DNA of 37,429 nucleotides from a bacterium. Its GTDB lineage: Bacteria; SZUA-182; DTGQ01. Within the stretch, counting starts at the first letter, position 1. Every line of letters begins with the position of its first letter. Made by a program: the position numbers and the translations under genes. The stretch spans positions 1-37,429 of the forward strand of contig JBFLZW010000021.1 in assembly GCA_040755755.1 (NCBI GenBank), read 5' to 3'. Shown here piece after piece: positions 9,403 to 27,913 of the stretch. The notes under the pieces were generated by a model. The model saw only the letters and a program-made list of their open reading frames with translations, made no database searches and was not told the origin of the DNA.

Positions 9403-9553
9403 GGCACCTATTCTCCTGCGCCCGCAGGGCATTTGTTCTCCCTCGCCCGTGAGGGCGCTTATACTCCCCTCGCCCGTGGTGAGGGCTCCTATACTGCCCG
9501 TGAGGGCACTTATACTCCCTCGCCCCTCCGGGGAGAGGGCTGGGGTGAGGGGC
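9403..9553. repeat. Cluster of GC-rich palindromes
   Basis: Five successive short inverted repeats: GCCCGCAGGGC, CGCCCGTGAGGGCG, CGCCCGTGGTGAGGGC, TGCCCGTGAGGGCA and a larger CCCCTCCGGGG-centred one. They are spaced by TATACT-containing linkers. Frames through this array are artefacts. It may end transcription of the ABC gene or protect its mRNA. Confidence 0.65.
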
Positions 9554-9654
9554 CTGCTTGGTTAGTATCCTGAAGCTGATGACATTGGCCCTCTGCATGG
9601 AGAGGGTTAGCAACAAGGTGCATAAGAGCATTAATCGCAATTAATCATAAGCGT

Positions 9655-10506: not shown

Positions 10507-11344
10507 CATTCCCAAGGCCGCAGTTGCGGCAGAAACTGATGGATCGATATTCAGGTTATCTTTCGAGAAAGGCTCTCTCTACTCTCTGGATTTGAAGTAC
10601 AGAAGCTATGTCACTGAGTCAATCAGATTTAGAGTGGCCCAGCCTACGATAACCTACGGGCATTTTTTCAGCAGAGGGTGGGCATTTTTCACTTGTGCGC
10701 CGTTTATATATTCCAATAAAGAGCTTGAAGATGCCAGAGGGGAGAACGAAGAAAAACAGGTTTATCTTTTACTCGGTAATGTTGTTATCACTCCTCAGTA
10801 CAGCTTCAAATGGAAAGGCAAAACTATCCGGCTTTCTCTGGAGACGCAGTTACCTACGATGAATAGACTCTATGAACTGGAATCACAGGAAACGAAAGCG
10901 AATGGTAACGGTAATGGGCAGGGTTTTATGAATATGAATCAAAATCAATCTAATACGAGTAAATTAGGCAAGTTAAATATAAAAGAAAATAAAATATTAA
11001 CAACGAAACCCTCTATCATCATAAGCCGTGCTTATGATCCCATAATTCATGTAATAAACTTAAGCTTTTGTCAACCCTTATGGAGAGAGGAAAACCGGGA
11101 AGAAATTTACCAATATTGGAATGCTGAGGCCAGCTACGGTACCTATTTTGTTGTGAATGATAAGTTCACCCTTAATTCAGACCTTGGCATTTCAACAGGG
11201 AAAAAGAAAGAAAATTATATTCTTAAGGTCGGGACAACCTTTTTCTCGACCCCAAAACAAGGATTGGATATTTATTTGCTCAATATGTATAACGGATTAA
11301 CCTGGGAAGTTACTGCCGGAATCTCGTACACGATTACGCGGTAA
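10460..11344 (+). CDS. Predicted outer-membrane beta-barrel protein, function unknown
   Basis: A signal peptide (residues 1-24, MKKLTLNLIIISLLFSIPKA then cleavage near AVAAE) is followed by alternating amphipathic strands rich in aromatic residues. The end is a short strand finishing ISYTITR. An Asn/Gly/Gln-rich loop lies near residues 150-165. The start is a TTG at 10460, supported by AAAGGTGAA five nt upstream, giving a 47-nt overlap with the C39 gene. The fold is inferred from pattern, not from a recognised family. It could be a pore or surface partner for the peptide handled by the upstream exporter and peptidase. Confidence 0.68.
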   Translation: MKKLTLNLIIISLLFSIPKAAVAAETDGSIFRLSFEKGSLYSLDLKYRSYVTESIRFRVAQPTITYGHFFSRGWAFFTCAPFIYSNKELEDARGENEEKQVYLLLGNVVITPQYSFKWKGKTIRLSLETQLPTMNRLYELESQETKANGNGNGQGFMNMNQNQSNTSKLGKLNIKENKILTTKPSIIISRAYDPIIHVINLSFCQPLWREENREEIYQYWNAEASYGTYFVVNDKFTLNSDLGISTGKKKENYILKVGTTFFSTPKQGLDIYLLNMYNGLTWEVTAGISYTITR

Positions 11345-11395
11345 TAAGCTGAAATCTCTTATAGAATTACCCAGGAGTAATGCATGGGGCCTCCA

Positions 11396-11435
11396 CTACT
11401 CTCCTCCCCCTTGAGGGGGGATGCTGGGTGGGGGT
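11396..11435. repeat. Short GC-rich palindrome
   Basis: CTCCCCC and GGGGGG arms with TTGA between them, followed by GGGTGGGGG. Same family as 7212-7255 and 16133-16185. Confidence 0.45.
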
Positions 11436-11564
11436 GAATACAAGAACTACCCTTCTGTTAAGGGATGGGAAATAGAGCACACCTTCATATATGAGCAATT
11501 GGTTGAACTTATATAACTTTGTAGGCCATGGTACTCAAACATATATCAAAAAGGGGAGTTAAAA

Positions 11565-12689
11565 ATGGCAGAGCTACAAACACCAGCAACATCTTCGATC
11601 CCGATTAAACATGCCAAAATTCTAAAAGGCCCGCTTCAAATGGCTTTTGATATAACTAATAGATGTAATTTTAAATGCCTTCATTGTTATAACAGAAGTG
11701 GCGAGCACGATAGAATACACGATGAACTAAAGGATAAGGAAGTTATAAAATTTATTAAAGATGTTGTCAAAATTAAGCCTCTAAACCTTTGCATATGTGG
11801 GGGAGAGCCATTATTGAGAGAGGAATTAGTCTATGAGGTCGCAAAGATTCTATCGCGAGAAAACATCATGGTTTCTCTTGTTACTAATGGTTCATTAATG
11901 ACTGAGGACAGAGCAAAACGTCTTCTTGATAGTGGGATCGAAAGAATACAAGTTAGTCTTGATGGTGCGAGCGCTGAAACCCATGAGAGACTCCGTGGAT
12001 TTAAGGGGAGTTTTAAAAAAGTATTAGATGCTATTTCGATACTTAAAAGTATTAATGGTTCCAAGACAATAGTAGGGGTTGCTTTTTGTCCTACCCGGTT
12101 TAACTGTCATGAGTTTGAGAAGGTTTTTTATATGTGTAAGGAACGGGAAGTAGATAGTATTCGTATCCAGCCATTAATGCTTTTGGGCAGAGCTCAATTG
12201 AACATTAGGGGAATAGAGCCAACACCACTACAATATCGTAATTTGATGAGAACGATCAATTCCCTTTGTTATAAATATGGATCAGCATCAATAGACTGGG
12301 GCGATCCTATTGACCATCTTATAAGAAATTCCTCTGTAGCACAACATTGTGTTGTTTTCGTACATATTTTTTCAAATGGTGATATTGCTGCATCACCTTA
12401 TCTTCCAATAGTTGTAGGGAATATAAAAAGATATTCTTTTATCAAATATTGGGATGCAGGGCTGGCTCGAATGTGGGAATCGGAGTTACTAAAAAAATTT
12501 GCGAACAAAATTAAAAGCATTCCGGATTTAGGAAAAGAACATAATGGTTTGCCAATTGTTATGTTTGATGAAGATATTTATGTTGATCTTGTTGATGACA
12601 ACTTATTTAAAGTTAAGGAGTCAACAGTCAGGAGTCAAAATTCAGGAGCAAGAAGAGAAATACAGGCTGGAAGCCTGCCTGGTAATTGA
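11565..12689 (+). CDS. Radical SAM enzyme, probable RiPP maturase
   Basis: Residues 24-210 are a radical SAM domain: the cluster motif Cys34-x3-Cys38-x2-Cys41 (CNFKCLHCYN) and the SAM-binding GGEP at 79-82. The C-terminal part (about 255-305) has the outline of a SPASM/Twitch region: AQHC at 259-262, FSNGDIAASPYLP where the family normally has a G(D/N)xxPC stretch, and VVGNIKRYSFIKYW. The usual extra cysteines are missing, so auxiliary clusters may be absent or reduced. The last 22 residues are encoded by a GTCAGGAGTCA-type dispersed repeat and are probably a late addition. SD GGGAG precedes the ATG. The PqqD/RRE gene and small peptide gene downstream point to peptide modification; the chemistry is not predictable here. 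Confidence 0.88.
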   Translation: MAELQTPATSSIPIKHAKILKGPLQMAFDITNRCNFKCLHCYNRSGEHDRIHDELKDKEVIKFIKDVVKIKPLNLCICGGEPLLREELVYEVAKILSRENIMVSLVTNGSLMTEDRAKRLLDSGIERIQVSLDGASAETHERLRGFKGSFKKVLDAISILKSINGSKTIVGVAFCPTRFNCHEFEKVFYMCKEREVDSIRIQPLMLLGRAQLNIRGIEPTPLQYRNLMRTINSLCYKYGSASIDWGDPIDHLIRNSSVAQHCVVFVHIFSNGDIAASPYLPIVVGNIKRYSFIKYWDAGLARMWESELLKKFANKIKSIPDLGKEHNGLPIVMFDEDIYVDLVDDNLFKVKESTVRSQNSGARREIQAGSLPGN

Positions 12690-12703
12690 AACCCAGCCAT
12701 TTC

Positions 12704-12725
12704 GTCATTCCCGCGAAAGCGGGAG
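12704..12725. repeat. REP-like palindrome
   Basis: GTCATTCCCGCG followed by AAAGCGGGAG. This is a common type of bacterial intergenic palindrome. Relatives are a half copy at about 15284-15301 and a fuller copy at 37374-37399. The rest of 12690-12895 is AT-rich and shows no gene. Confidence 0.6.
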
Positions 12726-12895
12726 CATGTCCTAAACTTCTCTATTCTACTGCTCCTGCAAGGATGGCGATGATGTGGTACATGGAGCCTCTGTGACAGC
12801 CGAAATGAAAATCAAAATCAATGGATAAATTAATTTGATATAAAATTATTATTTTTATCTAAAAATAATTTATTAAATAATGGGAGAAATTAATT

Positions 12896-13807
12896 ATGCA
12901 AAGTTTGGAAAATCATCGCCCTATTTTTAAAAAGGAAAATCTTATATACGAGAGAGAAGAAAAGGATAGTAATTGGACAATTCTTCCTAAGTTTCATCCG
13001 GAGACGAGAGAGTTAATTATAAATCGCACTGCCAAAGAAGTCTTAATGTATTGCGATGGAACGAGGACGATTGAAGAAATAGTAAAAGCCATGAAGGACA
13101 AATACCAAAATGCAGCTATCGAATTAATAAGAAATGATGTACACAATACTCTTGCAAGTTTTTCCAGGTTAATGATTATTCAATGGGAAAATGAAAATCC
13201 TTTTCTTTTTAAAAGAGAAAGAATAATTTCTGATGAAACATTTTTTAGGATTGGAGTTGAAGAGGATATATTAGAAATTAAGGCATTTATTGAAAAATCA
13301 GGCATATCGGAGAAAAAGCTTGAACAGAAAGAAAATTCGGAACTGTTTTTATATAGAAGTTCGCTTATTGATCCAATAAATGAGTATTCAGAAGTAGCAA
13401 TGAGGCAAAAGATGTTTAGATATTATGAAGATTTTTTTATTTATTTCAATAAAAAAGAAATTTTAAGCCTCATATCAATCGCTTTGCCAATGCCTCCTAA
13501 TCAGGCTGCATCTTTTAACTTAGTAATCGCGAAGAAAAGCATCTTAAAAGATTTGCTGAGATATTCTGCGGATAATTTGCCATTTATTTCCGTTTTTAAA
13601 ATTAGAAAAATAAAATTATATGAGGATATGAATGAAAAGTTATCTCCTGAATTCGAAAAAATTTTTGTTGATGAAGGATATAAACAGGAAGGCATACTGA
13701 GGGATGAGTTAGGATTAAATCATGACCTGAGGATCATGAGTTGGATATATGATCCTTTATTTATCGACGAGGTTGAAAAACAAAGAAGCAATATTACATA
13801 TAATTAA
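12896..13807 (+). CDS. PqqD-like RiPP recognition element fused to a GNAT-like domain
   Basis: Residues about 15-100 match the PqqD/RRE winged-helix fold: FHPETRELIINRTAKEVL, then CDGTRTIEEIVKAM and an amphipathic helix ending FSRLMIIQW. Such domains bind RiPP leader peptides and hand them to the modifying enzyme. Residues about 115-295 resemble a GNAT acyltransferase, most clearly in VDEGYKQEGILRDEL followed by RIMSWIYDP, which fits the last strand-helix pair of that fold. The acetyl-CoA loop is not obvious, so activity is uncertain. SD GGGAG lies 9 nt before the ATG. It sits between the radical SAM gene and the candidate precursor, and codon use is strongly AT-biased. Confidence 0.78.
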   Translation: MQSLENHRPIFKKENLIYEREEKDSNWTILPKFHPETRELIINRTAKEVLMYCDGTRTIEEIVKAMKDKYQNAAIELIRNDVHNTLASFSRLMIIQWENENPFLFKRERIISDETFFRIGVEEDILEIKAFIEKSGISEKKLEQKENSELFLYRSSLIDPINEYSEVAMRQKMFRYYEDFFIYFNKKEILSLISIALPMPPNQAASFNLVIAKKSILKDLLRYSADNLPFISVFKIRKIKLYEDMNEKLSPEFEKIFVDEGYKQEGILRDELGLNHDLRIMSWIYDPLFIDEVEKQRSNITYN

Positions 13808-13996
13808 TTGATAGTTGATTACTGTAGTTAGGACATATGTATTCAAACTTTTTATATGAACTGGATCAGAAGTGTCTTACAGATACACCTTAGTAATTCA
13901 TATAGTATATTATCTTCCCGGGGGAGAAGGAGCCTATCAGAAAATTCTGTCTATTTTTTAGAGAGATTATAAAAAATTAGGGAGGAGGTGAAAATT

Positions 13997-14149
13997 ATGG
14001 CATATGAAAGACCTTCAATCGAGGCTTTAGGTGATGCCCAAATGGGTGAAGTAATGGGTGCCTGGGCTTTTGCTCTGGTCTTTGTACCTTTTCTATCTTT
14101 CACCTGGCCATTTGGCACAGGCGGTGTGGGCATATATCTGGTCCTGTAA
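13997..14149 (+). CDS. Candidate RiPP precursor peptide, 50 aa
   Basis: A 50-codon gene with an excellent ribosome binding site (GGGAGGAGGTGA, 6 nt before ATG) and a terminator 54 nt after the stop. The peptide starts MAYERPSIEALGDAQ, which fits the YxxPx(I/L)xxxG leader pattern bound by RRE proteins, best known from lasso-peptide leaders. Residues 15-50 are hydrophobic and aromatic (GAWAFALVFVPF, SFTWPFGTGG, VGIYLVL) with no cysteine, and a Gly-Gly lies at 42-43. No lasso cyclase or protease genes are present, so lasso chemistry is unlikely; the radical SAM and RRE-GNAT genes just upstream are the likely partners. An alternative is a small membrane protein. Confidence 0.75.
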   Translation: MAYERPSIEALGDAQMGEVMGAWAFALVFVPFLSFTWPFGTGGVGIYLVL

Positions 14150-14202
14150 TTGCTGCTTAGAGTTAGTTTGAGCAGCGTGATTTTTGTCTGAATGATAGGC
14201 TA

Positions 14203-14230
14203 AAAACTCTTCTCCCCTGGGAAGAGTTTT
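14203..14230 (+). terminator. Rho-independent terminator after the precursor gene
   Basis: Ten-base stem AAAACTCTTC / GAAGAGTTTT with an 8-nt loop and a 3' TTTT. It would separate the precursor mRNA from the LolA-like gene. Because the A and T runs mirror each other, it may also work on the other strand. Confidence 0.7.
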
Positions 14231-15190
14231 ATGGAGATTAATAATAAGAGAAATACAGGAAAGTATATGAAAAGAAGATCTTGCGGGAAAATGAGTATGG
14301 AGAGTAAAAAGAAATTGTACTTTTCGAAGTCTCAAGAATCTGGTTGGAATTTGAAACCGAGTGCCAGGATATCAATAATAATGCCCCGGTTATCATCAAT
14401 ATCAATACTAATATCGTTAACATTATTAATCCTCTCCTTTTTCACCTTATTACCAGCGAAAGGATTCCCAATGGATTTACCAGACATAACTTACATTACT
14501 CAAACTGCCAGGGAGAAACATGAAAACCTTAAGGCAGCGATACCCAATATAGCACTTGTCCAGGAGTCAATTACCGTTACTGATAAAGATAACATTACTT
14601 CGATTATTAAATCTTTTAAGCAGGGTGAAAAGTTCCGGATGGAGGCTGAAATTACCTCAAAACTTAACCAGGGTAAAAAGGCTATTACCATTTATGATGG
14701 AACAGACTATTGGACTATTTCTTCCGGAGTAAAGACCAGGCTTTCCGAGGACATGAAGAAAAAAATTCAGACTACTGCTGAAAGGAAATGGTGGGACTTG
14801 CTTCCTGATGGGGCGGAGATCAAAGGCATCGAGAAAATTGATGAATCTGAATGTTACCTCATAGCACCTGGTAAGGTATCACCCCCAAAAGTAGAAAAGA
14901 ACTCTATTAACAGACTTTGGATTGATAAAGAAAAACTGATGTTACGCAAAGTCGAATCCATAGGGCTAAAAGGTGAAATTTACATTATGGTTATTTCTGA
15001 CTTTCGCACCATTAAAGACAATATAGAAATTCCTTTTAAGGTAATGACATATAAAGATAATAAGCTCGTGTCAACTGTTACAACAAAGTCTTGTGAAATT
15101 AATAATGGAGGGTTTCCGAGTAAGTATTTTGATGCAAATGCAGAGCAAGATATTAATATTAAGGAGGTTATCAAGGAATTATTTGATTGA
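14231..15190 (+). CDS. LolA-like outer-membrane lipoprotein-sorting family protein
   Basis: The mature part (about residues 85-319) resembles the LolA/LolB-like fold found in proteins named outer membrane lipoprotein-sorting protein. Recognisable segments are KFRMEAEI, TIYDGTDYW, NRLWIDKEKLMLRKVE and the late ISDFRTIKDNIEIPFKVM. The first ATG directly abuts the preceding terminator stem, so translation probably starts later: Met13 (14267, AGGAAAG upstream) or Met51 (14381), which would begin just before the hydrophobic export segment (54-76). These proteins bind hydrophobic acyl or peptide ligands in the periplasm. A role in carrying or resisting the hydrophobic peptide is inference. Confidence 0.8.
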   Translation: MEINNKRNTGKYMKRRSCGKMSMESKKKLYFSKSQESGWNLKPSARISIIMPRLSSISILISLTLLILSFFTLLPAKGFPMDLPDITYITQTAREKHENLKAAIPNIALVQESITVTDKDNITSIIKSFKQGEKFRMEAEITSKLNQGKKAITIYDGTDYWTISSGVKTRLSEDMKKKIQTTAERKWWDLLPDGAEIKGIEKIDESECYLIAPGKVSPPKVEKNSINRLWIDKEKLMLRKVESIGLKGEIYIMVISDFRTIKDNIEIPFKVMTYKDNKLVSTVTTKSCEINNGGFPSKYFDANAEQDINIKEVIKELFD

Positions 15191-15917: not shown

Positions 15918-16025
15918 TTATATGAAACGAAAAAAACCAAAGGGAGTAAAAACTGTAAAGCGCGGAATCCAGATAAAAAATGGAGTAATCAGTATCCCTG
16001 CTTTGATGCTGGTTTTTATGTTCAT
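15918..16025 (-). CDS. Small aromatic peptide A (divergent paralogue)
   Basis: A 35-codon gene, too short for normal calling. Residues 1-15 read MNIKTSIKAGILITP and residues 27-35 read TPFGFFRFI. It shares with peptides B-E the positions Ile3, Thr5, Lys8, Gly10, Thr14-Pro15, Thr27-Pro28, Gly30 and Phe32, without gaps. It is the most divergent copy: its ribosome site is weaker (GGGTGAAA instead of AGGAGGTGAAA) and it lacks the final alanine. It lies last in the array, 373 nt after B. It could be decaying or specialised. Confidence 0.6.
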   Translation of the reverse strand: MNIKTSIKAGILITPFFIWIPRFTVFTPFGFFRFI

Positions 16026-16132
16026 GGTTTCACCCGGTCCTTTTCGTGGTTATCAAGGTTATCTAAGTTATCAACATTACCAAGGGTAGTAGCAAATTCT
16101 TGATCATAAGTATATTCCAGGGTGGTTCCTGT

Positions 16133-16185
16133 ATTCACCTCCACCCAACCTCCCTCCTCAAGGGGGAGGAGTGTAAGGGGAAGTA
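16133..16185. repeat. GC-rich palindromic repeat
   Basis: CCTCCCTCCTC and GGGGGAGGAG arms. Same family as 11396-11435 and 7212-7255, in the spacer between peptides A and B. Confidence 0.45.
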
Positions 16186-16294
16186 ACTAAAAGTAAATAC
16201 CTGCTGAAGGCGAACTTATTACTGTACCTGATCACTGTACCTGGAAAAAACTCTCGTTCACGACATTGCCATGCTCTCAATATCAATATCAATA

Positions 16295-16335
16295 CCCTCA
16301 CGCCGGAGAGAAAATCCATTCTCCAGGCGTGAGGG
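16295..16335 (-). terminator. Strong stem-loop between peptides B and A
   Basis: CCCTCACGCC plus GGAGA pair with TCTCC plus GGCGTGAGGG, giving about 15 pairs with one bulged base and a 10-nt loop. It lies 64 nt after the stop of peptide B. There is no U tract, so it could be a weak terminator or a 3'-end stabiliser rather than a classical terminator. Confidence 0.5.
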
Positions 16336-16398
16336 CATCTTGGGCTAAGGTGAAATTGTTTCCTTTACTCTATAATCTATAACCATACTCCATTAAGG

Positions 16399-16509
16399 TT
16401 AAGCAAAGAAATTGAATAAACCCCACGGGGTTAATCCGAAACAGTTAATGAGAGTCAAACTCCAGGGAGTAACACGAAATCCTGCTTTCAGACTGGTTGC
16501 TATCTTCAT
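16399..16509 (-). CDS. Small aromatic peptide B
   Basis: A 36-codon gene preceded by a near-perfect ribosome binding site (AAAGGAGGTGA, 5-6 nt from ATG). Residues 1-16 are MKIATSLKAGFRVTPW, residues 17-25 are SLTLINCFG and residues 26-36 are LTPWGLFNFFA. Two TPW motifs bracket a variable centre. It is basic at the N-terminus, hydrophobic afterwards, and has no long leader. Ala9-Gly10 with Leu7 at -4 resembles a very short double-glycine type site for a C39 peptidase. No known family is recognised. Confidence 0.8.
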   Translation of the reverse strand: MKIATSLKAGFRVTPWSLTLINCFGLTPWGLFNFFA

Positions 16510-16738
16510 TTTTTCACCTCCTTTCCGTAATATGCCTTCGGTTCATAGACTGGGCCGGAAATGCCCTCTCTAAAACCGCCTCCCGAGAGCATGGGTCTGT
16601 AATACAGACACTCTCTGACTCTCTGAAGGATATAATAACTGGACGTCCTCAGTTCAGAGTGTAGTGTACCTCCTCCGAACAATAAGCCTTTTCATAACCA
16701 AATCAGGTATGCCTCCTGGTTATATTGCATTATCAGTA

Positions 16739-16849
16739 TCAGGCAAATAAATGGAAAAATCCAAATGGTGTTAATGCACTTATGCACCAGATATTCAGAC
16801 TCCAGGGAGTAACACGAAATCCTGATTTAAGGTTGGTTGCTATCTTCAC
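16739..16849 (-). CDS. Small aromatic peptide C (GTG start)
   Basis: 36 codons, starting with GTG; its ribosome site is GGAGA. Residues 1-16 are MKIATNLKSGFRVTPW, 17-25 SLNIWCISA and 26-36 LTPFGFFHLFA. It is a clear paralogue of B, D and E with Ser9 in place of Ala9. A longer in-frame ATG frame reaches 16942, but homology to the other copies begins exactly at this GTG. Like B, it has one cysteine in the variable centre. Confidence 0.78.
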   Translation of the reverse strand: MKIATNLKSGFRVTPWSLNIWCISALTPFGFFHLFA

Positions 16850-16969
16850 TATTGATCTCCTTGTCTCATTGTCTCCTTGTTCCAAAATTACCAACGGCTT
16901 TCGGCATTTCTCTCCAGTCCGGGTTATCTTTGATTTCTCCATTACCAGCCTGTTGAATGGCTTTGTGGA

Positions 16970-17070
16970 GTATCACTCTAATAACCGGCTTCGCTGAAAA
17001 AGCTTGGCAATAGTGGAAAGGCATTTCCACTGCTGCCAGAAAGCCTTTCCACCACTGCTTTACGTGATAC
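16970..17070 (-). repeat. Hairpin-rich spacer unit between peptides D and C
   Basis: Bounded by GTATCAC (16970-16976) and GTGATAC (17064-17070), the latter touching the TAG stop of peptide D. Inside is a near-perfect hairpin at 17012-17031 (AGTGGAAA/TTTCCACT) and further CCTTTCCACCAC half copies. The same arrangement recurs at 17278-17396. These elements would fold at the 3' end of each peptide message. Confidence 0.65.
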
Positions 17071-17180
17071 TAGGCAAAGAAATTGAATAAACCCCATGGA
17101 GTTAACCAATACCAATCCACGATGGTAAGACTCCAGGGAGTGACGCGAAAACCTGCTTTCAGATTTGTTGCTATCCTCAT
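17070..17180 (-). CDS. Small aromatic peptide D
   Basis: 36 codons with ribosome site AAAGGAGGTGA before ATG. Residues 1-16 are MRIATNLKAGFRVTPW, 17-25 SLTIVDWYW and 26-36 LTPWGLFNFFA. It has four tryptophans. Closest to E, differing at four positions (Arg2, Leu18, Tyr24, Trp29). Its TAG stop overlaps the inverted-repeat spacer downstream. Confidence 0.82.
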   Translation of the reverse strand: MRIATNLKAGFRVTPWSLTIVDWYWLTPWGLFNFFA

Positions 17181-17277
17181 GATTTCACCTCCTTTTTTTA
17201 GGATTGCCAAAAGTTTCCGGCCTTTCTATCCAGCCTTTTTGATCTCTCCTTTTAGCCTGCTGATCCGGCCTCGTGGA

Positions 17278-17396
17278 GTATCACCCCTCCACTGAAGAAG
17301 AGCTTATCAATGGTGGGAAGGCCTTCCCACTATTGGCGGAGAGACCTTCCCACCGCCTGGGTGGGAAGGCCTTCCCGCTACTGCCTAAGGTGATAC
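17278..17396 (-). repeat. Hairpin-rich spacer unit between peptides E and D
   Basis: Bounded by GTATCAC (17278-17284) and GTGATAC (17390-17396, touching the TAG stop of peptide E). It holds an 18-base perfect palindrome at 17313-17330 (GTGGGAAGG/CCTTCCCAC) and a near-copy at 17361-17378. Same design as 16970-17070 with different stem sequences, so structure rather than sequence seems kept. Confidence 0.68.
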
Positions 17397-17506
17397 TAGG
17401 CAAAGAAATTGAATAAACCCAACGGAGTTAACCAGAACCAATCCACGATAGTAAAGCTCCAGGGAGTTACCCGAAAACCTGCTTTAAGGTTAGTTGCTAT
17501 CTTCAT
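17396..17506 (-). CDS. Small aromatic peptide E (first of the array)
   Basis: 36 codons with ribosome site AAGGAGGTGAAA before ATG. Residues 1-16 are MKIATNLKAGFRVTPW, 17-25 SFTIVDWFW and 26-36 LTPLGLFNFFA. It is the most upstream copy and lies 831 nt downstream of the ABC exporter operon on the same strand, with a structured leader before it. No database family is recognised; a secreted or membrane-active peptide is the favoured interpretation. Confidence 0.82.
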   Translation of the reverse strand: MKIATNLKAGFRVTPWSFTIVDWFWLTPLGLFNFFA

Positions 17507-17538
17507 AGTTTTCACCTCCTTATCTCAGGGTTTAGCCC

Positions 17539-17591
17539 CAGCTTGGGATTACTCTCAAGCTGAAGGCATACATGCCCCATACTGGGGCATG
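17539..17591 (-). promoter_or_regulatory. Two perfect hairpins in the leader of the peptide array
   Basis: Hairpin 1 is 17539-17562 (CAGCTTG/CAAGCTG, 10-nt loop). Hairpin 2 is 17571-17591 (CATGCCCCA/TGGGGCATG, 3-nt loop). They end about 33 nt upstream of the peptide E start. They might act in attenuation or mRNA stability. I could not match them to a known riboswitch. Confidence 0.5.
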
Positions 17592-18336
17592 GTAATAGTT
17601 GTAAAAACCCTTCCTCCGAAATAAATCTCCCATGATGTACCTGGTTGATGATAGCACCGCAGGGCACTATCTCTCAGTTATCAACACTGAACATATATCG
17701 TCACTAAGGTTGGAGAATAATTACTACAAAAAGATGTATATTTTAGTAAATTCAAGTACCAATTTTATGTAGATTATGGAAATTAAAAAGTTAACTACTT
17801 GATATAATTATAAATTATGAAAGAAGGCCAGATTATTTGGAGGCTAAAAAATTTGGTATTATTAGGCAGAATTTTGACTTAATTTGTACAGTGAATGTGT
17901 GCAGCCCTGGCCGTTGCGAGATCTATATTCGAAAGGTCGAAGTAAGAGTAAGAGAAACTACTCAGGTAGGATAGACTGTAGTCTTTTGAAGGCAATGTCA
18001 ATAGCTTTAGGCTACGTATCGAGAAAGCCCCTCACTTGCCACAGAGGCTCCCTGCCAGACCTCTTCCAAAGGGGCGAGGGAGAAAAGAGACCAGCTTATT
18101 ACCCGTCGCGATAAATCCGCGGCCAATTAGGCTCGACCAAGGGATCGCGTGCGGTATTTGGTGGGGCAAAAAAGCAGCCTCACCCTCTTCCGTTAGCGAC
18201 TATCGAATACATGTGGTCGCTGCCTTTTTCATGAGGGAAGCCCCTCCTCCACTCCCTGGTGTGCACTTAGCTTAACACGTGGTACCTTATCCAGGCACGG
18301 TCAAAATGTAAGGTTTACGGGCTGGTGGATGTATGC
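17592..18336. other. Spacer between peptide array and exporter operon
   Basis: 17700-17890 is very AT-rich and is the likely place of a promoter for the peptide array on the minus strand, though no consensus pair stands out. 17890-18330 is GC-richer and carries repeats, including the inverted partner of 7024-7103. I see no supportable gene on either strand. Confidence 0.55.
18101..18167 (-). repeat. Dispersed repeat, right copy (inverted partner of 7024-7103)
   Basis: Contains CGCGATAAATCCGC (18107-18120) and a 25-nt block (18143-18167) that pair with the left copy in reverse complement. It lies just outside the 3' end of the exporter operon, so the two copies bracket about 11 kb containing all peptide-related genes except the C39 exporter. 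Confidence 0.7.
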
Positions 18337-20622
18337 TTACGGATGGGCAATAACCAGGAGGGTGGGGGCCTGCTCAAGGACATACGCCAGGGCCTGATGG
18401 AGGCTTTCCGGGTCAAGCGCGGCAAAGCTCTCATCGAGAATGATCAGGTCTGCGCCCTGGAGCAGTGCCCTGGCAATGTAGATGCGGCTTTTTTCTCCAT
18501 GGGAAAGCTGCCATCCGGTCTCCCCGACCATCTGCATCAGTCCTGCGGGCATGCGGTCGAGCAGGCTGCCGAGGCCGAGTTTGCGGCAGACTGCTTCAGC
18601 CTCCTCAAGGTCACCGGGCTGCGGCGGCCAGCGCCGGCCCATCAGGAGATTGAAGGCCAGGGTGCCGGTGAGGACATGGTTTTCGTGAAACTGGGGCGCG
18701 GCGGCCACCCGGCGGCGCCAGGTCTGTGTCCCGACGGTTGAAAGGTCAAGTCCCCGCATCAGAAGAAGGCCCGACTCAGGCGCGCGCAGGCCGATGAGCA
18801 GAGAGGCCAGGGTGGATTTTCCTCCCCCGGAGGGGCCTTCGAGCAGGAGCTGGTCACCGGCCCTGATTTGCAGGCTGCATCCGTAGATAACCGGCTCGCT
18901 GCGGCCCCGGTAGCGAAAGGCACAGTTATGCATCTCAATCACCGGATACTGCTCGTGCTGCTCATTCTGTTCATTCTCCTTCGGGGAATGGGGCTCGTGC
19001 GTATGGACAAGAGCTGAGGAAGAAGGCAGCCCGCAGGCTCTGGGGCGGCCTGCTGCATGAAAGAGCGGGGCGACCTGCTTCCAGGCAATGACGGTATCGG
19101 CAAGGCTCATAAGCCCTGCCGGGAGCTTTCCCAGGGCACGCTGGGCGAGTAAGACCCCGGCCAGGCCGACTGCCAGCACCCCCACCGATCCTGCCTGACC
19201 CGAAACAAAGGCCACAGACAGCCCGGCAAGGCCCAGAACCAGCCACCCCGAGGGTATCAGGGTCGTGAGCAGAACTGCCCGTGAATCCATAGCCTTTGAC
19301 AGCTCCAGGTAGCGCTCGACCGCCTGATCCTCTCCATCGTGCCAGTGTTCACGCCGCTCCTGGGCAAGCCTGGTCCTGTGGCCAACCATCCGCTCAACCA
19401 GGTCATGGGTCATTTCAAGACGCATCTTTGTCCATTCCCAGCGGTCGGTGAGGTAGCGCCAGCCCCAGAAAAGGGATATCATCACCCAGACAAGAAACAG
19501 GAGGATATTCAGCCTTCCTCCTGTGCCGATTCCAAGAACCACGGTAGCCGCAATCAGCTCGATGATCATGGCTATGCTGGTAAATCCGCTGTTTAAGGCA
19601 AGGGATTCCAGGGCTTCGGATTCAATGACCCGGCCAAGGAGCTGTCCGGCACCCTGGTGGCTGATCTCTTCAGGCTCAAGCTGCAGGGCACCATACAGGA
19701 GCCGCTGCTTGAGGAGTCCTCCGGCATTGATGGCCAGAGCGCCCTGAAACCAGGTCGCGGCCATCTGGAAGGGGATCATGGTGAATAACAGCAGCGCCCA
19801 GGCCAGGAGCCACCCCAAATCGAGGTTGCCCTGCAATGCCCCCCGCCCTATTACCCACCAGGCAAAGACCATCAGTGCGTATTGAACCGTGTAGGCCCCG
19901 GTGAGGGCACAAAAGGAGCGCGGAAGGCGGGCCTGACGCATCTGCTGCCAAAAGCCTGCGCCCGGCGAAAGCCGCAGAAGCCAGCACCGGGTAACCGGCA
20001 CCGGGCCAAGGTGCTCGGACAGAATGACTGCCCGTGCCTGTGCATGGCGCTGCCTGCTGACCATGACCTCAGCGAACAACCGGTCGATCTCAGGGGCAAG
20101 GTATGATTCCAGCCCCTGGCACAGTATCGCTTGGACTGTCTCAAGGGCGATCCGGTGCACCTTGTGGTCAGGGCCGAGAATGGATAATGGCTGATTTTTC
20201 CGGCCCTGCCGTTTGCCGGGAACAAGGGCCAAAAAACGCGGGGCTTCCTGAAAACCGGGGTGTCCGGGTTGTCCGGGCAGGGGAATGAGTGCCGGGGCGG
20301 CACCCTGCAAAAGCCTGCCGGTCATGTCATAGGTGATATCGATTGGCTCGGCCTCAAGCCCAAGGTAACTGACAGCCGACTCGATCCACTGCTCAAGGGC
20401 TTTACCTGCACCGCTATCGCCCCCGGCGGTTTGGGATTCGGTTTGGAATTGCTGAATAATGCTCTGCGGCGGTCCGGGCATTTCGATCGGCAGGGGCTTG
20501 AGTGAGCTTTTTCTGGCCAGAATTTCCAGGGCTTCGCCTAACCGGGAGACCGGCCAGGAGAAAGCCTCCGGCTCCGAAAAAATTTTTCCAGTTAATTTCT
20601 GGCTTAATTTCTGATGTTCCAT
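18337..20622 (-). CDS. ABC transporter subunit (second ABC of the C39 export operon)
   Basis: 761 aa. An N-terminal non-membrane region of about 230 residues is followed by membrane segments (about 235-510) and an ATPase domain. Walker A GPSGGGKST is at 596-604, signature LSHGEKSRIYIARALL from 706, Walker B LIILDE at 726-731. The protein stops one residue after the switch histidine (IAHP), so the last strands that normally follow are missing. Its ATG abuts the stop of the C39 transporter gene, so they are coupled and probably form a heterodimer. The three-gene set recalls NHLM/NHLP-type peptide export systems (HlyD, ABC1 with peptidase, ABC2), but exact family membership is not proven. Confidence 0.87.
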   Translation of the reverse strand: MEHQKLSQKLTGKIFSEPEAFSWPVSRLGEALEILARKSSLKPLPIEMPGPPQSIIQQFQTESQTAGGDSGAGKALEQWIESAVSYLGLEAEPIDITYDMTGRLLQGAAPALIPLPGQPGHPGFQEAPRFLALVPGKRQGRKNQPLSILGPDHKVHRIALETVQAILCQGLESYLAPEIDRLFAEVMVSRQRHAQARAVILSEHLGPVPVTRCWLLRLSPGAGFWQQMRQARLPRSFCALTGAYTVQYALMVFAWWVIGRGALQGNLDLGWLLAWALLLFTMIPFQMAATWFQGALAINAGGLLKQRLLYGALQLEPEEISHQGAGQLLGRVIESEALESLALNSGFTSIAMIIELIAATVVLGIGTGGRLNILLFLVWVMISLFWGWRYLTDRWEWTKMRLEMTHDLVERMVGHRTRLAQERREHWHDGEDQAVERYLELSKAMDSRAVLLTTLIPSGWLVLGLAGLSVAFVSGQAGSVGVLAVGLAGVLLAQRALGKLPAGLMSLADTVIAWKQVAPLFHAAGRPRACGLPSSSALVHTHEPHSPKENEQNEQHEQYPVIEMHNCAFRYRGRSEPVIYGCSLQIRAGDQLLLEGPSGGGKSTLASLLIGLRAPESGLLLMRGLDLSTVGTQTWRRRVAAAPQFHENHVLTGTLAFNLLMGRRWPPQPGDLEEAEAVCRKLGLGSLLDRMPAGLMQMVGETGWQLSHGEKSRIYIARALLQGADLIILDESFAALDPESLHQALAYVLEQAPTLLVIAHP

Positions 20623-23589
20623 CTAAAACTCCCCCTGTGCTGAAAGCATCCTGTCCGCCGATCCCCTGCTCTCCTCCCACCCGTCAACAGCAGCTTCTTC
20701 GATCACCTGTCCTGCATCGAGGCGCAGCCTGCGCCAGGCCGGACCGGACCAGAAACCTCTTCTGACCCTCTCTTCCACTTCCGCTATCGCCCGGTAGCGT
20801 GAATCGGGCCTGCTGGCAAGGTCAGCCGGAGCACCGGCCTCAACAATCCGCCCCCCCTCCATTACCAGGACCTGGTCAAAGCCGATGGTCTCGCCTACAT
20901 CATGGGTAATGCACAGGAGCGTGGCCTGCGGCCAGAGCTTTCGGCAGTTCGAAAGAAGGTCCTGCCGCTGCCGGTAATCGAGCCCCCGGAATGGCTCATC
21001 CAGGATCACCAGCCGCACTCCAGGCCGGAGCATTCCCCGGGCAAGGCGAACCCGCTGCCCCTCACCGCCTGACACCAGGACTCCGCCCTCGCCGAGCCGG
21101 GTCTGGAACCCGGCTGTCAGCCGTCCCAGAACACTGTGCAGGCCAGCCGATTGTATCGCCTGTCCGATCGGCAGTGATGCATCGGGGGCAATTCCATAAT
21201 AGAGGTTTTCGAGCAGGGAGCGGTTCCAGAGCTGCACCGAAGGATCAATCCAGGCCGTTTCACGGCGAAGCCGCTCAAGCCGGTCAGCGGTGAGGGGGCA
21301 TCCGTCAACCAGGACCCGTCCGCTGAAGGGGCGGTGCCAGCCGAGAAAAATGCCGACCAGCGTGGATTTTCCTGCACCTGAGCGGCCAACGATGGCCACA
21401 TGGCTTTGCGGCTCGATGGCCAGGTCAATGTCAGTGAGGATGATCTGCCCGGCTGCCCGCACACCCACGCCTTCGAGAAGAAGGGATACTCCCCGTCTTA
21501 CTTTCACTGTTCCCGGCGGATAGCCCGGACTATCATCAGACTCCTGCAATTCCCCGCCCTGAATATCTGCTTTGCCCTGCGGAGCCGCCGTTTCCCCGGC
21601 GGTTGGTTCTTCGGGAGCGCCGAGAGGTTCAATCAGGCGCAGGGTCACGTTGCGATGATTGGGGTACTGCCGGGCCATCGTGGCCACCATCTGACCGAGA
21701 TTTGGCAGATTCAGGGCCCAGTACCCCAGTAAAAGGACCCCCCCGGCATCACCTCCGTGTGCCAGATAGCTGAACAGGAGCCATGCAGCCAGCCCAAAGC
21801 CGATGAAGGACAAAAGGCCCTCGATGGCCACTACCGCGGCCTGGAAGCCAAAGCCTGCATTGGCCCACTCGACCAGCAGGTCCTCATGCTCACGGCGGAC
21901 GGCCCGTTCCGCACTGTGAGCACGCACTGCCACCAGGCCAAGCATTACATCGAGGTAGAAACGGCTCAGGGCCCCGCCGTGGTTCCGGACCCGGAGATTT
22001 CGCTCAGCCAGGTAGGGGTTGACGATAAGGGGCAGGCCGACGCTGAGCAGGGTGGTCAGCAGGGCAATCAGCGCACTCTGCGGGTATATCCAGGCAATTG
22101 CAGCCGTAGTCAGGGCAAGCTCGAAGGTCGTGCGGATGAATTGGCCGCCAAGGGTTGGCAAAAGCCGCAGAGTTTGTACACTGTGGCTTCGCTCGGCCAT
22201 ATCCGAGGTAAGGCGGCTTTGAAAGTAGCGGTCATGGAGCCGGGGAATTTTTTCCATGAAGGCCAGCCGGAGGCGGGACTCAAGATGCCGTCCAAGGCGC
22301 AGTAATTCTGCGGCAATCGGAAGCTCCAGGAGAAGAGCCGCAGTTGCAAAAACGAGAATCGCGGCCATGAATTCGAGCCGCTGCCCGGCCAGGCCAAGCT
22401 CCCGGCCAAGGTCAAAAAGCCCGCGAAACAGCAGGGCCTGGATAATGACACTGGTAGCTGCCATAGCCAGGGCGACAATGAGAAGCGGCGCAGACAGGAA
22501 ACCGTCGTGAGCCAGGAGCTTCAGAAGCTCACGTCCGGCCTTGAGCGGCCGCTCATGGATGGCTGCTTCGAGCTCGACCGAAAGAGCAGCGGGACCTGCC
22601 CCGCTATCCGGGCTGCTATCCGGGTTGGCGGTACCCGGCTGAACAGAAGCGCCTCGATCCTGGCTTTCGGGTATACTATCCTGCCCCTCAACCGCAGTGT
22701 AGAGGGCCATCCTTCCTGCTGCCGCCTGCCTGCCAAGTGCCCGGACGAGCACAGCGCCGCGCAGGAAAAGCTGTTCTTCACCCCGCATCCCGGCCGGAGC
22801 GGGCTGAACTGACCAGTAGGCAGCCGGAATGACTCTTGCCATCTCCTGTGCCGCCTCTCCCCGCCCGCGTTCAAAGAAAGCCCTGATCACGCCATGAGCC
22901 TGCCGTCCCGGTCTCAGTGCCCCTGATCTGACCAGGGAATCGACCATCCGGCAGGCCGCATCCAGGGTGCCTATCGGCTGCCAGCCAGGGTCCTGGAGCG
23001 CCTCCTGTACGAGCAGGATTATTTTCCTCCGTGATAATCCAAGCCTTGCCAGCCTGTGGCAGAGGGCCCCCAGAAATTCGGGCGTCCCTGCCCAATCCCG
23101 CCAGGCCGCAGCCGGAACCGGCATGGTATGAACATACAGCTCATGGAGAAGCTGCCTGCATCTTGGCCACCTTCTGCCGGTAGCCGGATCCATGACCTGA
23201 GCGATGCGGCCATGAATCCGCCAGATGACAATAAAGTGCGTCAGCCCGCTTGGGCTGCACACAGCGGCAATGGCGGGCAAAGCCCTGGCCTGGGGGAGCA
23301 GCAGGTGATCGACCGGCAGCATGATCTGTTCTGCTTCGAGCCCCAGTTGCATGGCCACCTGTTCCAGGGTGTTCATGGAGGTGCCATCGACATCGGTCTG
23401 GCACGCCTCACGGAGTCGGCCATAGCTTACCCGGATGCCAAAACCTTCAAGGAGGCACTTCAAAGATGCTGGCCCGCAGTCCATGCTCGATGTCTGGACG
23501 ATTTCCGGAATAATCAGGCGCCGGCGGTTTCCTGGGGCATGCCGGGGGGAGGAAGGGCTGGCCGTGCTGGCGGCGCCGTCAGCGGACAT
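20623..23589 (-). CDS. C39 peptidase-containing ABC exporter
   Basis: 988 aa, longer than the usual 700-720 aa for peptidase-containing exporters. The C39 domain (about 28-150) has the full triad Cys38 (SSMDCGPASL), His118 (LTHFIVIW) and Asp134 (VMDPATG). About 200 residues of unknown, mostly soluble sequence (150-355) come before the membrane domain (about 360-660). The ATPase has Walker A GRSGAGKST (735-743), signature VSGGEGQRVRLARG, Walker B LVILDE and His896. A tail of about 70 residues follows the ATPase core. It should cut a double-glycine type leader and export the rest. It overlaps the HlyD gene by 11 nt. Codon use is GC-rich, unlike the peptide genes. Confidence 0.92.
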   Translation of the reverse strand: MSADGAASTASPSSPRHAPGNRRRLIIPEIVQTSSMDCGPASLKCLLEGFGIRVSYGRLREACQTDVDGTSMNTLEQVAMQLGLEAEQIMLPVDHLLLPQARALPAIAAVCSPSGLTHFIVIWRIHGRIAQVMDPATGRRWPRCRQLLHELYVHTMPVPAAAWRDWAGTPEFLGALCHRLARLGLSRRKIILLVQEALQDPGWQPIGTLDAACRMVDSLVRSGALRPGRQAHGVIRAFFERGRGEAAQEMARVIPAAYWSVQPAPAGMRGEEQLFLRGAVLVRALGRQAAAGRMALYTAVEGQDSIPESQDRGASVQPGTANPDSSPDSGAGPAALSVELEAAIHERPLKAGRELLKLLAHDGFLSAPLLIVALAMAATSVIIQALLFRGLFDLGRELGLAGQRLEFMAAILVFATAALLLELPIAAELLRLGRHLESRLRLAFMEKIPRLHDRYFQSRLTSDMAERSHSVQTLRLLPTLGGQFIRTTFELALTTAAIAWIYPQSALIALLTTLLSVGLPLIVNPYLAERNLRVRNHGGALSRFYLDVMLGLVAVRAHSAERAVRREHEDLLVEWANAGFGFQAAVVAIEGLLSFIGFGLAAWLLFSYLAHGGDAGGVLLLGYWALNLPNLGQMVATMARQYPNHRNVTLRLIEPLGAPEEPTAGETAAPQGKADIQGGELQESDDSPGYPPGTVKVRRGVSLLLEGVGVRAAGQIILTDIDLAIEPQSHVAIVGRSGAGKSTLVGIFLGWHRPFSGRVLVDGCPLTADRLERLRRETAWIDPSVQLWNRSLLENLYYGIAPDASLPIGQAIQSAGLHSVLGRLTAGFQTRLGEGGVLVSGGEGQRVRLARGMLRPGVRLVILDEPFRGLDYRQRQDLLSNCRKLWPQATLLCITHDVGETIGFDQVLVMEGGRIVEAGAPADLASRPDSRYRAIAEVEERVRRGFWSGPAWRRLRLDAGQVIEEAAVDGWEESRGSADRMLSAQGEF

Positions 23590-24814
23590 TGTGTCCTCCG
23601 GTGACTGATCCAGCCGTTGCAGCGGACCCGGCAGGTCCGTCCATCGAGCCGAAGCTTTTCGAGGGGCGCGTCAGCAGCTTTCCCACAAGCCGCAGTACCA
23701 GCTCTGCCGGTGTGGTTCGATCCACCTCGACTTCAACCGAACCTGACAAACCATGCTGGAGAGGGATAGAAGAGACAAGGTTCGGGTCAAGAGCAAGCTC
23801 AGCCCTGACCTGCCCATCCCTGACTTCACTGGCGATCCTGGCGACCCTGGCTGGAATGCAGCCATATTGGGTCCAGGGGAAGCTGTCCAGGCGAAGCTGT
23901 GCCCGTTGACCGGGCCGGATGCGGCCTACCGTCTCTGATGCAGAAAAAAGAGCTGTAATGATAAGCCGCCCCGGAGTGAGAATGGTTCCACATCTTTCCC
24001 CCTCATGGATTACCGACCCGATCCTCAGATCCTTCATGCCATCAATTTGCCCGGCCACCGGTGCCCGAATTGAACCCTTGCCAATCTCGCCGAAGAGCCG
24101 CTCGATAGTCAGGGTCTTGGCCGCTATTTCTCCCTTGACCATAGCTATCTGGCGTTTGATCTGCTCTCTGCGCACCCGGCTTTCACTCTGACGGTTCTTT
24201 TCCTCCCATTCGAGTTGATGGGCACGAAGTTTGAGCGCCTCAGCCACCTCCTGGCGCTTTTGCATCTCTGCTTTTGTACGGAGGAAATCCACCTCGGACA
24301 CAATGCCATCAGCCCGCAGGACCTCCATCCGCTTGAATTCGTCCTCCAGCAGCACAAAGTCCACTTCCGCTTCCCGCTGCCTGGCCCGGGCCTCATCAAT
24401 GGCTTTTCGGGCTATCTGCTGATACTCATAATGTGCCTGCCTCTGAGCCTTCAATTCTCTGAAAAGCGCATCGAGCTGCCGGCTCAGGGCATCCACCTGA
24501 GAGCGCTCCTCAGCAACCATCAGGTGCTCCGAGGCCGTATCCAGTTCAACCAGAAGGTCGCCAGGCTGCACCTTCCGGCCCAGCACCATGTGATTGGCCA
24601 CAACCCGCCCCCCGATGGGAGCGTCCAGCGAATAGGCCGCCAGGTCCAGCTCTATCATTGCTGCCCCGCTCACCTCATACAGGGTGACTCTGGCCGCCAA
24701 AAACCAGATTGCCCAGAGAACCAAAACCACAGCGGCAAACACCAGGCACAACACCGACCGCCGATGGCTGTCGGCCCGAAGCGCCCGCAGGGAACGGGAA
24801 AAAAACCTGGACAT
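23579..24814 (-). CDS. HlyD-type membrane fusion protein of the export operon
   Basis: Periplasmic adaptor linking the inner-membrane ABC pair to an outer-membrane channel. It has one membrane segment (about residues 20-42), a split lipoyl-like domain (DAPIGGRVVANHMVLG and IRAPVAGQIDGMKDL), a long coiled coil (about 100-235) with many Glu, Arg and Gln, and a C-terminal beta-barrel part. I choose the ATG at 24814 because GGAGG lies 5 nt upstream; an in-frame TTG at 24826 would add four residues. First gene of the operon; no TolC-like gene is present in the window. Confidence 0.9.
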   Translation of the reverse strand: MSRFFSRSLRALRADSHRRSVLCLVFAAVVLVLWAIWFLAARVTLYEVSGAAMIELDLAAYSLDAPIGGRVVANHMVLGRKVQPGDLLVELDTASEHLMVAEERSQVDALSRQLDALFRELKAQRQAHYEYQQIARKAIDEARARQREAEVDFVLLEDEFKRMEVLRADGIVSEVDFLRTKAEMQKRQEVAEALKLRAHQLEWEEKNRQSESRVRREQIKRQIAMVKGEIAAKTLTIERLFGEIGKGSIRAPVAGQIDGMKDLRIGSVIHEGERCGTILTPGRLIITALFSASETVGRIRPGQRAQLRLDSFPWTQYGCIPARVARIASEVRDGQVRAELALDPNLVSSIPLQHGLSGSVEVEVDRTTPAELVLRLVGKLLTRPSKSFGSMDGPAGSAATAGSVTGGHNVR

Positions 24815-27067: not shown

Positions 27068-27088
27068 GGTACTTATAAGGAAAAAGAA

Positions 27089-27131
27089 AAAGGACACCAC
27101 TGAGACACTGAGACACAGAGAAAAACACAGG
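27089..27131 (+). repeat. Left inverted repeat flanking the toxin-antitoxin pair
   Basis: About 43 nt of CACTGAGACACAGAG-type sequence ending AGAGAAAAACACAGG. It matches the reverse complement of 27853-27894 with about six differences and one gap. Confidence 0.65.
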
Positions 27132-27236
27132 AAATGAGCAAAAGTGCAGGGAGCGAGAGCGTTAGAGAGTGAAGAGTGAGAGCCTGGGAGGGTGAAAAAC
27201 GCTTTGACTTTGAAGGATGCTTGGTATCAACTAGCC

Positions 27237-27500
27237 CTAAAGTCCTCGGTAGATTTCCCGACGATGACCGATTTTTACGATCAGGATTATTAGCTCATTA
27301 CTTCGCACGGTATAGATAACCCGGTAATCTCCTGTTCTGATCCGGTAAAGGTCATGCTCATTGGTGAGTTTCTTTGTATCGGGCGGATATGGATTTTCCG
27401 CTAAGGCATTAATCCGGTTTTTAATGCGGACCTGATCCTTTTTGGGGATATCCTTGAATTGGCGGGCAGCACCCGGAGAAAATTCTATTGTGTAAGCCAC
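27237..27500 (-). CDS. RelE/ParE-family toxin
   Basis: 87-aa predicted mRNA interferase or gyrase-type toxin of the RelE/ParE superfamily. It shows the family outline: YTIEFSPGAARQFKDIPK, a helix with KNRINALAENPYPPDTKKL, then YRIRTGDYRVIYTV and the end KIGHRREIYRGL, which resembles RelE more than ParE. It starts with GTG at 27500, overlapping the antitoxin stop by one base (TAGTG), which couples translation. Small GC-moderate gene in a cassette bounded by inverted repeats. Confidence 0.9.
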   Translation of the reverse strand: MAYTIEFSPGAARQFKDIPKKDQVRIKNRINALAENPYPPDTKKLTNEHDLYRIRTGDYRVIYTVRSNELIILIVKIGHRREIYRGL

Positions 27501-27754
27501 TATAACCCCTGTTCAGCTTTTATTTGTTCCCAGGGAATAGTTCCCTTTTCCTTCACTTCTTCCAGGGCCTCTTTGGCATCTTCAATGTCAATCTGATCTT
27601 CAAGTTTCTCCAAAAGCTCCAGGTCTGCAATGGAAACTACAGCGGCCAGGTTTTTTCCCCGACGATGAAGGATAACCCTTTCTTCTTTATAAGCCACGCG
27701 GTTGAGGATGTCTGCAAAATGGTCACGGGCTTTACTGGCAGATAAGCGAGTCAT
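27500..27754 (-). CDS. Phd/YefM-family antitoxin
   Basis: 84-aa antitoxin that should neutralise the RelE-like toxin and repress the operon. The Phd/YefM DNA-binding half is SASKARDHFADILNRVAYKEE, split by ERVILHRRGKNLAAVVS. The C-terminal helix EDAKEALEEVKEKG would wrap the toxin. I choose the ATG at 27754, with GGAGGATT 6-8 nt upstream. A longer frame to 27853 would place the promoter and operator inside the gene and is rejected. Confidence 0.9.
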   Translation of the reverse strand: MTRLSASKARDHFADILNRVAYKEERVILHRRGKNLAAVVSIADLELLEKLEDQIDIEDAKEALEEVKEKGTIPWEQIKAEQGL

Positions 27755-27783
27755 AATAAAATCCTCCCTCTTGTACGAATTGT

Positions 27784-27825
27784 GTATCTTGTACAAGGAT
27801 ACTATACTTCCTTGGACCTTGTCAA
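27784..27825 (-). promoter_or_regulatory. Promoter and operator of the toxin-antitoxin operon
   Basis: On the minus strand TTGACA (27820-27825) is followed by possible -10 boxes TATCCT (spacing 18) or TAGTAT (spacing 15). The palindrome CTTGTACAAG (27788-27797) lies at the start of transcription and is the likely autorepression site; a related GTAC half-site lies near 27773. Confidence 0.6.
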
Positions 27826-27852
27826 GTGTACATCCGGCCAATAATACCCTCA

Positions 27853-27894
27853 CCTGTGTTTTTCTCTGTATCTCTGTGTCTCTGTGGTTTCCTT
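27853..27894 (-). repeat. Right inverted repeat flanking the toxin-antitoxin pair
   Basis: CCTGTGTTTTTCTCTG followed by TCTCTGTGTCTCTGTGG; the reverse complement of the 27089-27131 repeat. It ends 20 nt from the 3' end of the guanylyltransferase gene. Confidence 0.65.
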
Positions 27895-27913
27895 GTTTTT
27901 CTTGCCTTTATGG

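Follow-up and report, generated by a model that had tools for sequence, protein, structure and literature searches.

Mini-genes with a short shared leader motif accompany a family of C39 peptidase-containing ABC exporters

How would an exporter that carries its own C39 peptidase handle peptides with a leader of only ten residues? The question is raised by the window studied here, a stretch of 37,429 nucleotides that forms an entire contig (G000:C21) of a 5.26-Mb bacterial genome and that holds an export operon and five mini-genes. We propose that the mini-genes encode secreted peptides, each made of a ten-residue recognition leader and a core of 25-26 residues, and that the three proteins of the operon (HlyD, C39-ABC and ABC2) bind these peptides, cut them after Gly10 and export them. 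We put the probability of this reading at about 0.84: gene structure, selection, linkage, co-occurrence and the sharing of the motif across phyla were observed directly, and binding, cleavage, export and activity are inferred.

In the proposed scheme, the leader M-K-[IV]-x-T-x-[LVI]-K-A-G would be essentially just the recognition motif of the exporter. The C39 domain of C39-ABC would bind this motif and cut after Gly10, and the core would then leave the cell through the C39-ABC/ABC2/HlyD complex. No modifying enzyme common to the three genomes that carry the family was found, so the core is probably unmodified. That it acts as a bacteriocin-like or signalling peptide is an inference from sequence, which does not decide between the two.

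The operon starts with a HlyD-type membrane-fusion protein (positions 23579-24814, minus strand; PF13437 HlyD_3, E 4.2e-14), for which the first ATG is at 24814 and the open reading frame opens at a TTG at 24826. An orthologue is present in a second genome of the same genus, G001. The next gene (20623-23589, minus strand) encodes a C39 peptidase-ABC transporter fusion of 988 aa, with PF03412 (E 3.8e-20), PF00664 (E 5.4e-10) and PF00005 (E 9.6e-21) all in one protein and with the catalytic residues Gln32, Cys38, His118 and Asp134. The protein fits the sequence criteria of a peptidase-containing ABC transporter (C39 PCAT/AMS): its C39 domain is N-terminal, has intact Cys, His and Asp, and is fused to the membrane and nucleotide-binding domains of an ABC transporter. 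Cys, His and Asp are also conserved in all homologues that extend over those positions, and the Gln is present in most of them, the window's own protein included. The third gene, ABC2 (18337-20622, minus strand; PF00005), encodes a second ABC transporter of 761 aa without a peptidase. It is 57-72% identical to its counterparts in G001 and in G003, a genome from another genus of the same family, and shares their C-terminal end. Because this end is conserved across homologues, it is not a truncation. In all three phyla in which ABC2 was found, the protein stops directly after the H-loop His (..VIAHP or VIAHT; 18337-18345 in the window).

The five mini-genes follow on the same minus strand and count 35-36 codons each: A (17396-17506; leader MKIATNLKAG, core FRVTPWSFTIVDWFWLTPLGLFNFFA), B (17070-17180; MRIATNLKAG, core FRVTPWSLTIVDWYWLTPWGLFNFFA), C (16739-16849, with a GTG start; MKIATNLKSG, core FRVTPWSLNIWCISALTPFGFFHLFA), D (16399-16509; MKIATSLKAG, core FRVTPWSLTLINCFGLTPWGLFNFFA) and E (15918-16025; MNIKTSIKAG, core ILITPFFIWIPRFTVFTPFGFFRFI). 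The first-pass annotation had described an exporter operon followed by a peptide array in the same orientation, and all of these parts were recovered in place on the minus strand. Its wording that the exporter genes lead directly toward the peptides is right for order and orientation and slightly generous for distance, as 830 nt separate the ABC2 stop codon from mini-gene A (273 nt past ABC2 in G003). It had also read residues 9-10 as Ala-Gly in A, B, D and E and Ser-Gly in C, and residue 7 as Leu in A to D and Ile in E, all of which we reproduce. It had called this a minimal double-glycine-type site; the features at -4, -2 and -1 are present, and 'minimal' undersells the site, since Thr at -6 and Lys/Arg at -3 are also near-constant.

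The mini-genes are real genes under purifying selection: with paralogue and orthologue pairs pooled, the leader codons have a pN/pS of 0.18 and the core codons one of 0.33. The leader is conserved and the cores diverge, which counts in favour of the leader as a recognition element. A purine-rich ribosome-binding site precedes each gene by 7-12 nt; it is strong for A-D and weaker for E (AAGGAGGTGAAA before the ATG of A, B and D; AAGGAG in C). With the start codons backed by these sites, the ten-residue leader is most likely complete and does not come from a truncated reading. Four of the five genes can be aligned over about 64 nt at 81-86%, and E is most similar to mini-gene d of G001 (MKVKTTLQAGILITPFFIWIPWIRILTPFGFFRYL). 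The cores (25-26 residues) are hydrophobic and rich in aromatic residues, with two TP[WF]-like motifs. Mini-peptide A matches no NCBIfam family and no Pfam family at its cut-off. No additional copies were found elsewhere in the 5.26-Mb genome or in the plasmids and viral contigs searched, and the search of genome contigs returned the G001 record as its sole match.

Upstream of the array lies a conserved 15-nt box (TTAGTGACGATATAT, 17693-17707, minus strand), which is promoter-like by position. The box (TTARTGACGATATAT) precedes the first mini-gene in G000, G001 and G003 and occurs once in the window's whole genome when at most one mismatch is allowed. Between D and E, folding an alignment over four relatives predicts a hairpin (16295-16335, minus strand) of 17 pairs, six of which have changes on both sides; it could be terminator- or processing-like. 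No known RNA family was detected in the array at the gathering threshold.

To what extent do exporter and mini-genes travel together? Among the nine genomes of the phylum, both are present in G000, G001 and G003 and neither in G002 and G004-G008; no genome (0/9) has the exporter without mini-genes or the reverse. In G003, C39-ABC (with its 5′ end cut), ABC2 and 3-4 mini-genes follow each other in a single orientation. The leaders of the four mini-genes there are MKIKTNLKAG, MKISTNVKAG, MKVKTNIKGG and MKVKTNCKSG, and one of the cores is unrelated to the rest despite the same leader. The metagenome-assembled G001 carries four mini-genes (contig JAILZY010000008.1) that adjoin an amidase gene; its exporter operon is complete and lies on a separate contig, followed by a large helicase gene. 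This lack of linkage counts against the pairing. Moreover, the three positive genomes all belong to one family, so the co-occurrence within the phylum alone is statistically weak.

We also considered the leader segments themselves, 29 in all, which are not independent because many come from close relatives. The conserved unit is [IV]xTx[LVI][KR][AG]G, in which Thr at -6 and Lys/Arg at -3 are almost as constant as the Gly. Counting back from the predicted cleavage site, Gly is found at -1 in 29/29 segments, Ala at -2 in 25/29, Lys/Arg at -3 in 28/29, Val, Leu, Ile or Cys at -4 in 29/29, Thr at -6 in 26/29 and Ile/Val at -8 in 25/29; information peaks at -1, -6, -2, -3, -4 and -8. All 29 segments meet the double-glycine criterion (Ala, Ser or Gly at -2 with Gly at -1, and a hydrophobic residue at -4). 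The canonical criterion of hydrophobic residues at -7 and -12 is not met: position -7 is Lys, Arg, Thr, Ser or Glu in 23/29 and Ala in 6/29, and a ten-residue leader has no -12. The -8, -6, -4 spacing suggests binding in an extended conformation, from which we infer that the tag [IV]xTx[LVI][KR]AG is probably bound as a strand and not as a helix.

More distant relatives of the exporter were found with an ABC2 profile in two other phyla, in 19 of 282 genomes of the phylum of G256, which we guess from gene content to be Myxococcota-like, and in 4 of 199 genomes of the phylum of G091. At these GC-rich loci, where genes were called by codon usage, small ORFs with ribosome-binding sites around the exporters carry the leader motif of the window. 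For example, G534 has three mini-genes just past ABC2 (MKAKTNVKAG with TYGSGTRSTASQASTRAELL, MKAKTNVKAG with AIGRGTRSTASQPGTRAELL and MKVKTNVKAG with YIGRKGAGNSARFE), G791 has MKVETDVKAG with GAIWVGDGRGNHNETIVG, and G821 has ..VILKTAVRGG with SVPSTRDPPPGYNHNQRGLAKAHEA. In G633, one ORF (L059, 7561-7370, minus strand) holds three tandem units of motif and core (MKVKTTVRAG with NYSVNHNANG, VKIKSKVRAG with GAPGNHNANG, and VKIKSKVRAG with ALAVNHSASRVNI); the cores are about ten residues long and contain NHN or NHS, and the arrangement suggests, from sequence, one precursor that may give several short peptides. Bare ten-residue leaders thus occur near the exporters of G534, G633 and G791, and on an ABC2 tree they are found on at least three branches (the window family with G791; G534; G633), with modest support for the deep nodes.

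Other distant exporters lie near precursors with long leaders, of the microviridin and radical-SAM types, which end in the same motif (VRTGLKAG, VKTDVKAG, IRTDVRAG, FRTGVRAG). Microviridins (PFFARFLE..VRTGLKAG..MKYPSD) are found near the exporter in G596, G441 and G432; MvdC/MvdD-type ATP-grasps stand next to them at both loci tested. A precursor of family NF033738 with ATP-grasp ligases nearby is present at L068 and L076. In the precursors of G600 and G595, ..FRTGVRAG and ..IRTDVRAG precede the core, and nif11_3-like radical-SAM maturases are adjacent. G256 has a LanB dehydratase by the exporter, and the contig ends within its candidate precursor, after ..VKRTRVR. Because distant exporters of the same family adjoin unrelated peptides with the same tag, the tag is very probably the signal by which the exporter selects peptides for cleavage and export. 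The evidence is not uniform. At 13 of the 24 distant exporter loci, several of them on short contigs, no motif peptide was found in the stretch examined, and looser motif searches at the remaining loci gave only one doubtful candidate (MKIRTTTRKG at L061). A Betaproteobacterial relative of the exporter (L100, Piscinibacter gummiphilus plasmid NZ_CP136338.1; 30.6% identical), in a cluster with DUF692 and TfuA-like genes, has only a diverged form of the motif, in a nearby 57-aa protein (7356-7529, plus strand; ..KAKVNVKLG with PIPFIAG..), which counts against the proposal.

The pairing of exporter and peptides, which the first-pass annotation had inferred from position only, thus gains support from the synteny in G003, the presence of both parts in G001 and the absence of both from six other genomes. 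The check it had suggested, co-occurrence of homologous exporters and mini-genes, came out positive in G003 and G001, with motif peptides at the distant loci as well. It would have been refuted by exporters linked consistently to long-leader precursors without such co-occurrence; long leaders do exist, but they end in the same motif.

We next asked how often such matches would arise by chance. A strict motif, [IV].T.[LIVC][KQ][ASG]G, derived from the window's family only, was run against those small ORFs at the 24 distant exporter loci that have a ribosome-binding site. It matched 7 peptides at 6 loci, whereas 200 composition-keeping shuffles averaged 0.07 and never exceeded 1. With Arg permitted at -3, a change made post hoc after some of the loci had been seen, there were 12 peptides at 11 loci (60 shuffles: mean 0.72, maximum 3). 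A leader-DNA pattern was also run on 386 genomes sampled across the domain and matched G000, G001, G003, G091 and G144, that is, 4 of 5 exporter-positive genomes versus 1 of 381 negative ones (Fisher p = 2.7e-8, or 1.2e-4 when the window's family is taken as one count). The sole exporter-negative match, in G144, reads into a 91-aa ORF without a clear ribosome-binding site. The match in G091 exposed a previously unknown mini-gene (MKIRTGIKAGCPRNDDDGGGE; MKIRTGIKAG with CPRNDDDGGGE) which, as in G001, is unlinked to the exporter. Within one phylum, a leader-DNA pattern matched five genomes; two are exporter-positive, with both matches beside the exporter, and the three further matches look like chance.

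Could another system in the window be the partner of the mini-genes? The plus strand at 7469-15190 carries an ABC exporter, a stand-alone C39 peptidase (FapD/FilB-like), an unassigned protein, a radical SAM protein, a PqqD-fusion protein and a LolA-like protein. This cluster adjoins the array, and its combination of a radical SAM protein, a PqqD domain, a C39 peptidase and an ABC exporter is RiPP-like, so that the mini-genes might be its precursors and the C39-ABC exporter might serve something else. Yet the PqqD-fusion protein is found in 0 of the 8 other genomes of the phylum, the mini-gene carriers G001 and G003 included, and the cluster looks private to the window genome. In G001 the mini-genes stand beside the amidase gene with no radical-SAM cluster between, and in other phyla the leader motif recurs by the C39/ABC2 exporter without a radical-SAM/PqqD cluster. 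As a partner, the cluster was ruled out because it is absent from both relatives that carry mini-genes, and we give this explanation very little credence.

The cores are also hydrophobic enough, at about 25 residues, to be small intracellular membrane proteins, in which case the neighbouring exporter would be a coincidence. Other bacteria are known to carry arrays of 35-residue hydrophobic toxins, and hairpins and repeats lie between the mini-genes here, as would suit a repeat array that encodes type I toxin-like or stress peptides. We nonetheless judge this highly improbable: it does not account for the first ten residues being the best-conserved stretch, for their recurrence, by the same exporter family, on unrelated peptides that are hydrophilic or enzymatically modified, or for the co-occurrence of exporter and mini-genes at the genome level. 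A different doubt concerns the cut itself. Conservation of the motif is observed and its cleavage is not, and in two exporters beside microviridins Gly replaces the oxyanion Gln, so the ten residues might be a targeting tag that the exporter leaves in place or that another protease removes later. This is very unlikely in our view, given that the C39 Cys, His and Asp are kept in all homologues that span them, that the Gln is kept in most homologues, that conservation falls after Gly10, and that C39 enzymes cut after just such an Ala-Gly with a hydrophobic -4. Our preferred reading remains that of a leader recognised and removed by the C39-ABC exporter.

The two exporters with the replacement are the C39-ABC proteins of L068 and L071, both of which adjoin microviridins; there, the oxyanion-hole Gln before the catalytic Cys has become Gly (TVGTSAMDCG).

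How does the system compare with those already described? The NHLP/Nif11 export cassette comprises a HlyD protein (TIGR03794), a peptidase-ABC (TIGR03796) and an ABC protein (TIGR03797) (Haft et al. 2010, PMC2887384). Like the operon in the window, it combines a membrane-fusion protein, a peptidase-ABC and a second, peptidase-less ABC, and it serves several RiPP classes via a shared leader (PMC2887384). What the leaders have in common here is an 8-residue motif, in contrast to the 70-90-residue NHLP or Nif11 domain, for which mini-peptides of 35-36 aa are too short. Membership in the NHLP/Nif11 (NHLM) cassette was ruled out by the curated cut-offs: the window proteins score 30.1 bits against 156.2 (TIGR03794), 166.4 against 853.3 (TIGR03796) and 111.5 against 709.4 (TIGR03797), and exporter members from another phylum also fall below.

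Known C39 peptidases such as LahT, ComA and PCAT1 recognise leader hydrophobics at -4, -7 and -12 (and -15) on a helix (PMC10885120). These double-glycine PCATs share with the window a C39 domain fused to an ABC exporter, a small residue plus Gly at -2/-1 and a hydrophobic -4. The leader here, however, may stop at -10, its -7 is usually Lys, Arg or Ala, and the conserved positions are -8, -6, -4, -3, -2 and -1. A C39-ABC exporter is also part of described clusters for class II microviridins and other graspetides (PMC13039773, PMC8939145). Three relatives of the window exporter adjoin microviridin precursors and MvdC/MvdD-type ATP-grasps, whereas the window shares only the exporter family and the leader-end motif: its mini-peptide has no NF033738 match and no microviridin core, and no ATP-grasp was found among the neighbouring proteins scanned. 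The best reading is that the system works like a peptidase-containing ABC exporter with a double-glycine-type leader that lacks the usual hydrophobics at -7 and -12, with cleavage and export inferred. No publication describing the leader motif was found in the literature searched, which left out most subscription journals.

These results suggest a secretion tag that is compact and transferable and that escapes gene callers and RiPP miners, because its genes have 21-36 codons and a leader without the usual helix motif. Since one exporter family is tied to several product classes, searching for the motif near the exporter should expose many unannotated secreted peptides. A broader generalisation, on which our own judgement is evenly split, is that C39/ABC2/HlyD exporters across phyla read a short tag, probably as an extended strand, that this tag alone is enough to export the product of almost any short ORF, and that the substrates of these exporters come from tag-only mini-genes, whether single, tandem within one ORF or arrayed, from several RiPP classes and perhaps from phage mini-genes.

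Regarding phages, a similar leader pattern gave 12 matches in IMG/VR, about chance level by our own estimate for a 33-bit pattern. Two related tailed-phage contigs (L089 at 10285 and L093 at 13371, both minus strand) carry mini-ORFs (MKVKTGLKAGLLHVPTADFGERHEQHTPHLR and MKVKTGLRAGHHREDHDHDDVPRTH) upstream of a terminase gene; the leader DNA is kept, the flanks can hardly be aligned, and no exporter lies on the stretches examined. They are possibly phage-borne substrates of a host exporter, with the overall match count at chance level.

Finally, two features of the window lie outside the array and its exporter. Two near-identical copies of an element (aacttacggggcgaagctataaca) lie about 500 nt apart upstream of the radical-SAM cluster (6204-6227 and 6710-6734, plus strand); the element matches no known RNA family at the gathering threshold. 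At 27074-27910, a 58-nt inverted repeat (83% complementary) flanks a gene (27500-27853) that resembles a Phd/YefM-type antitoxin.
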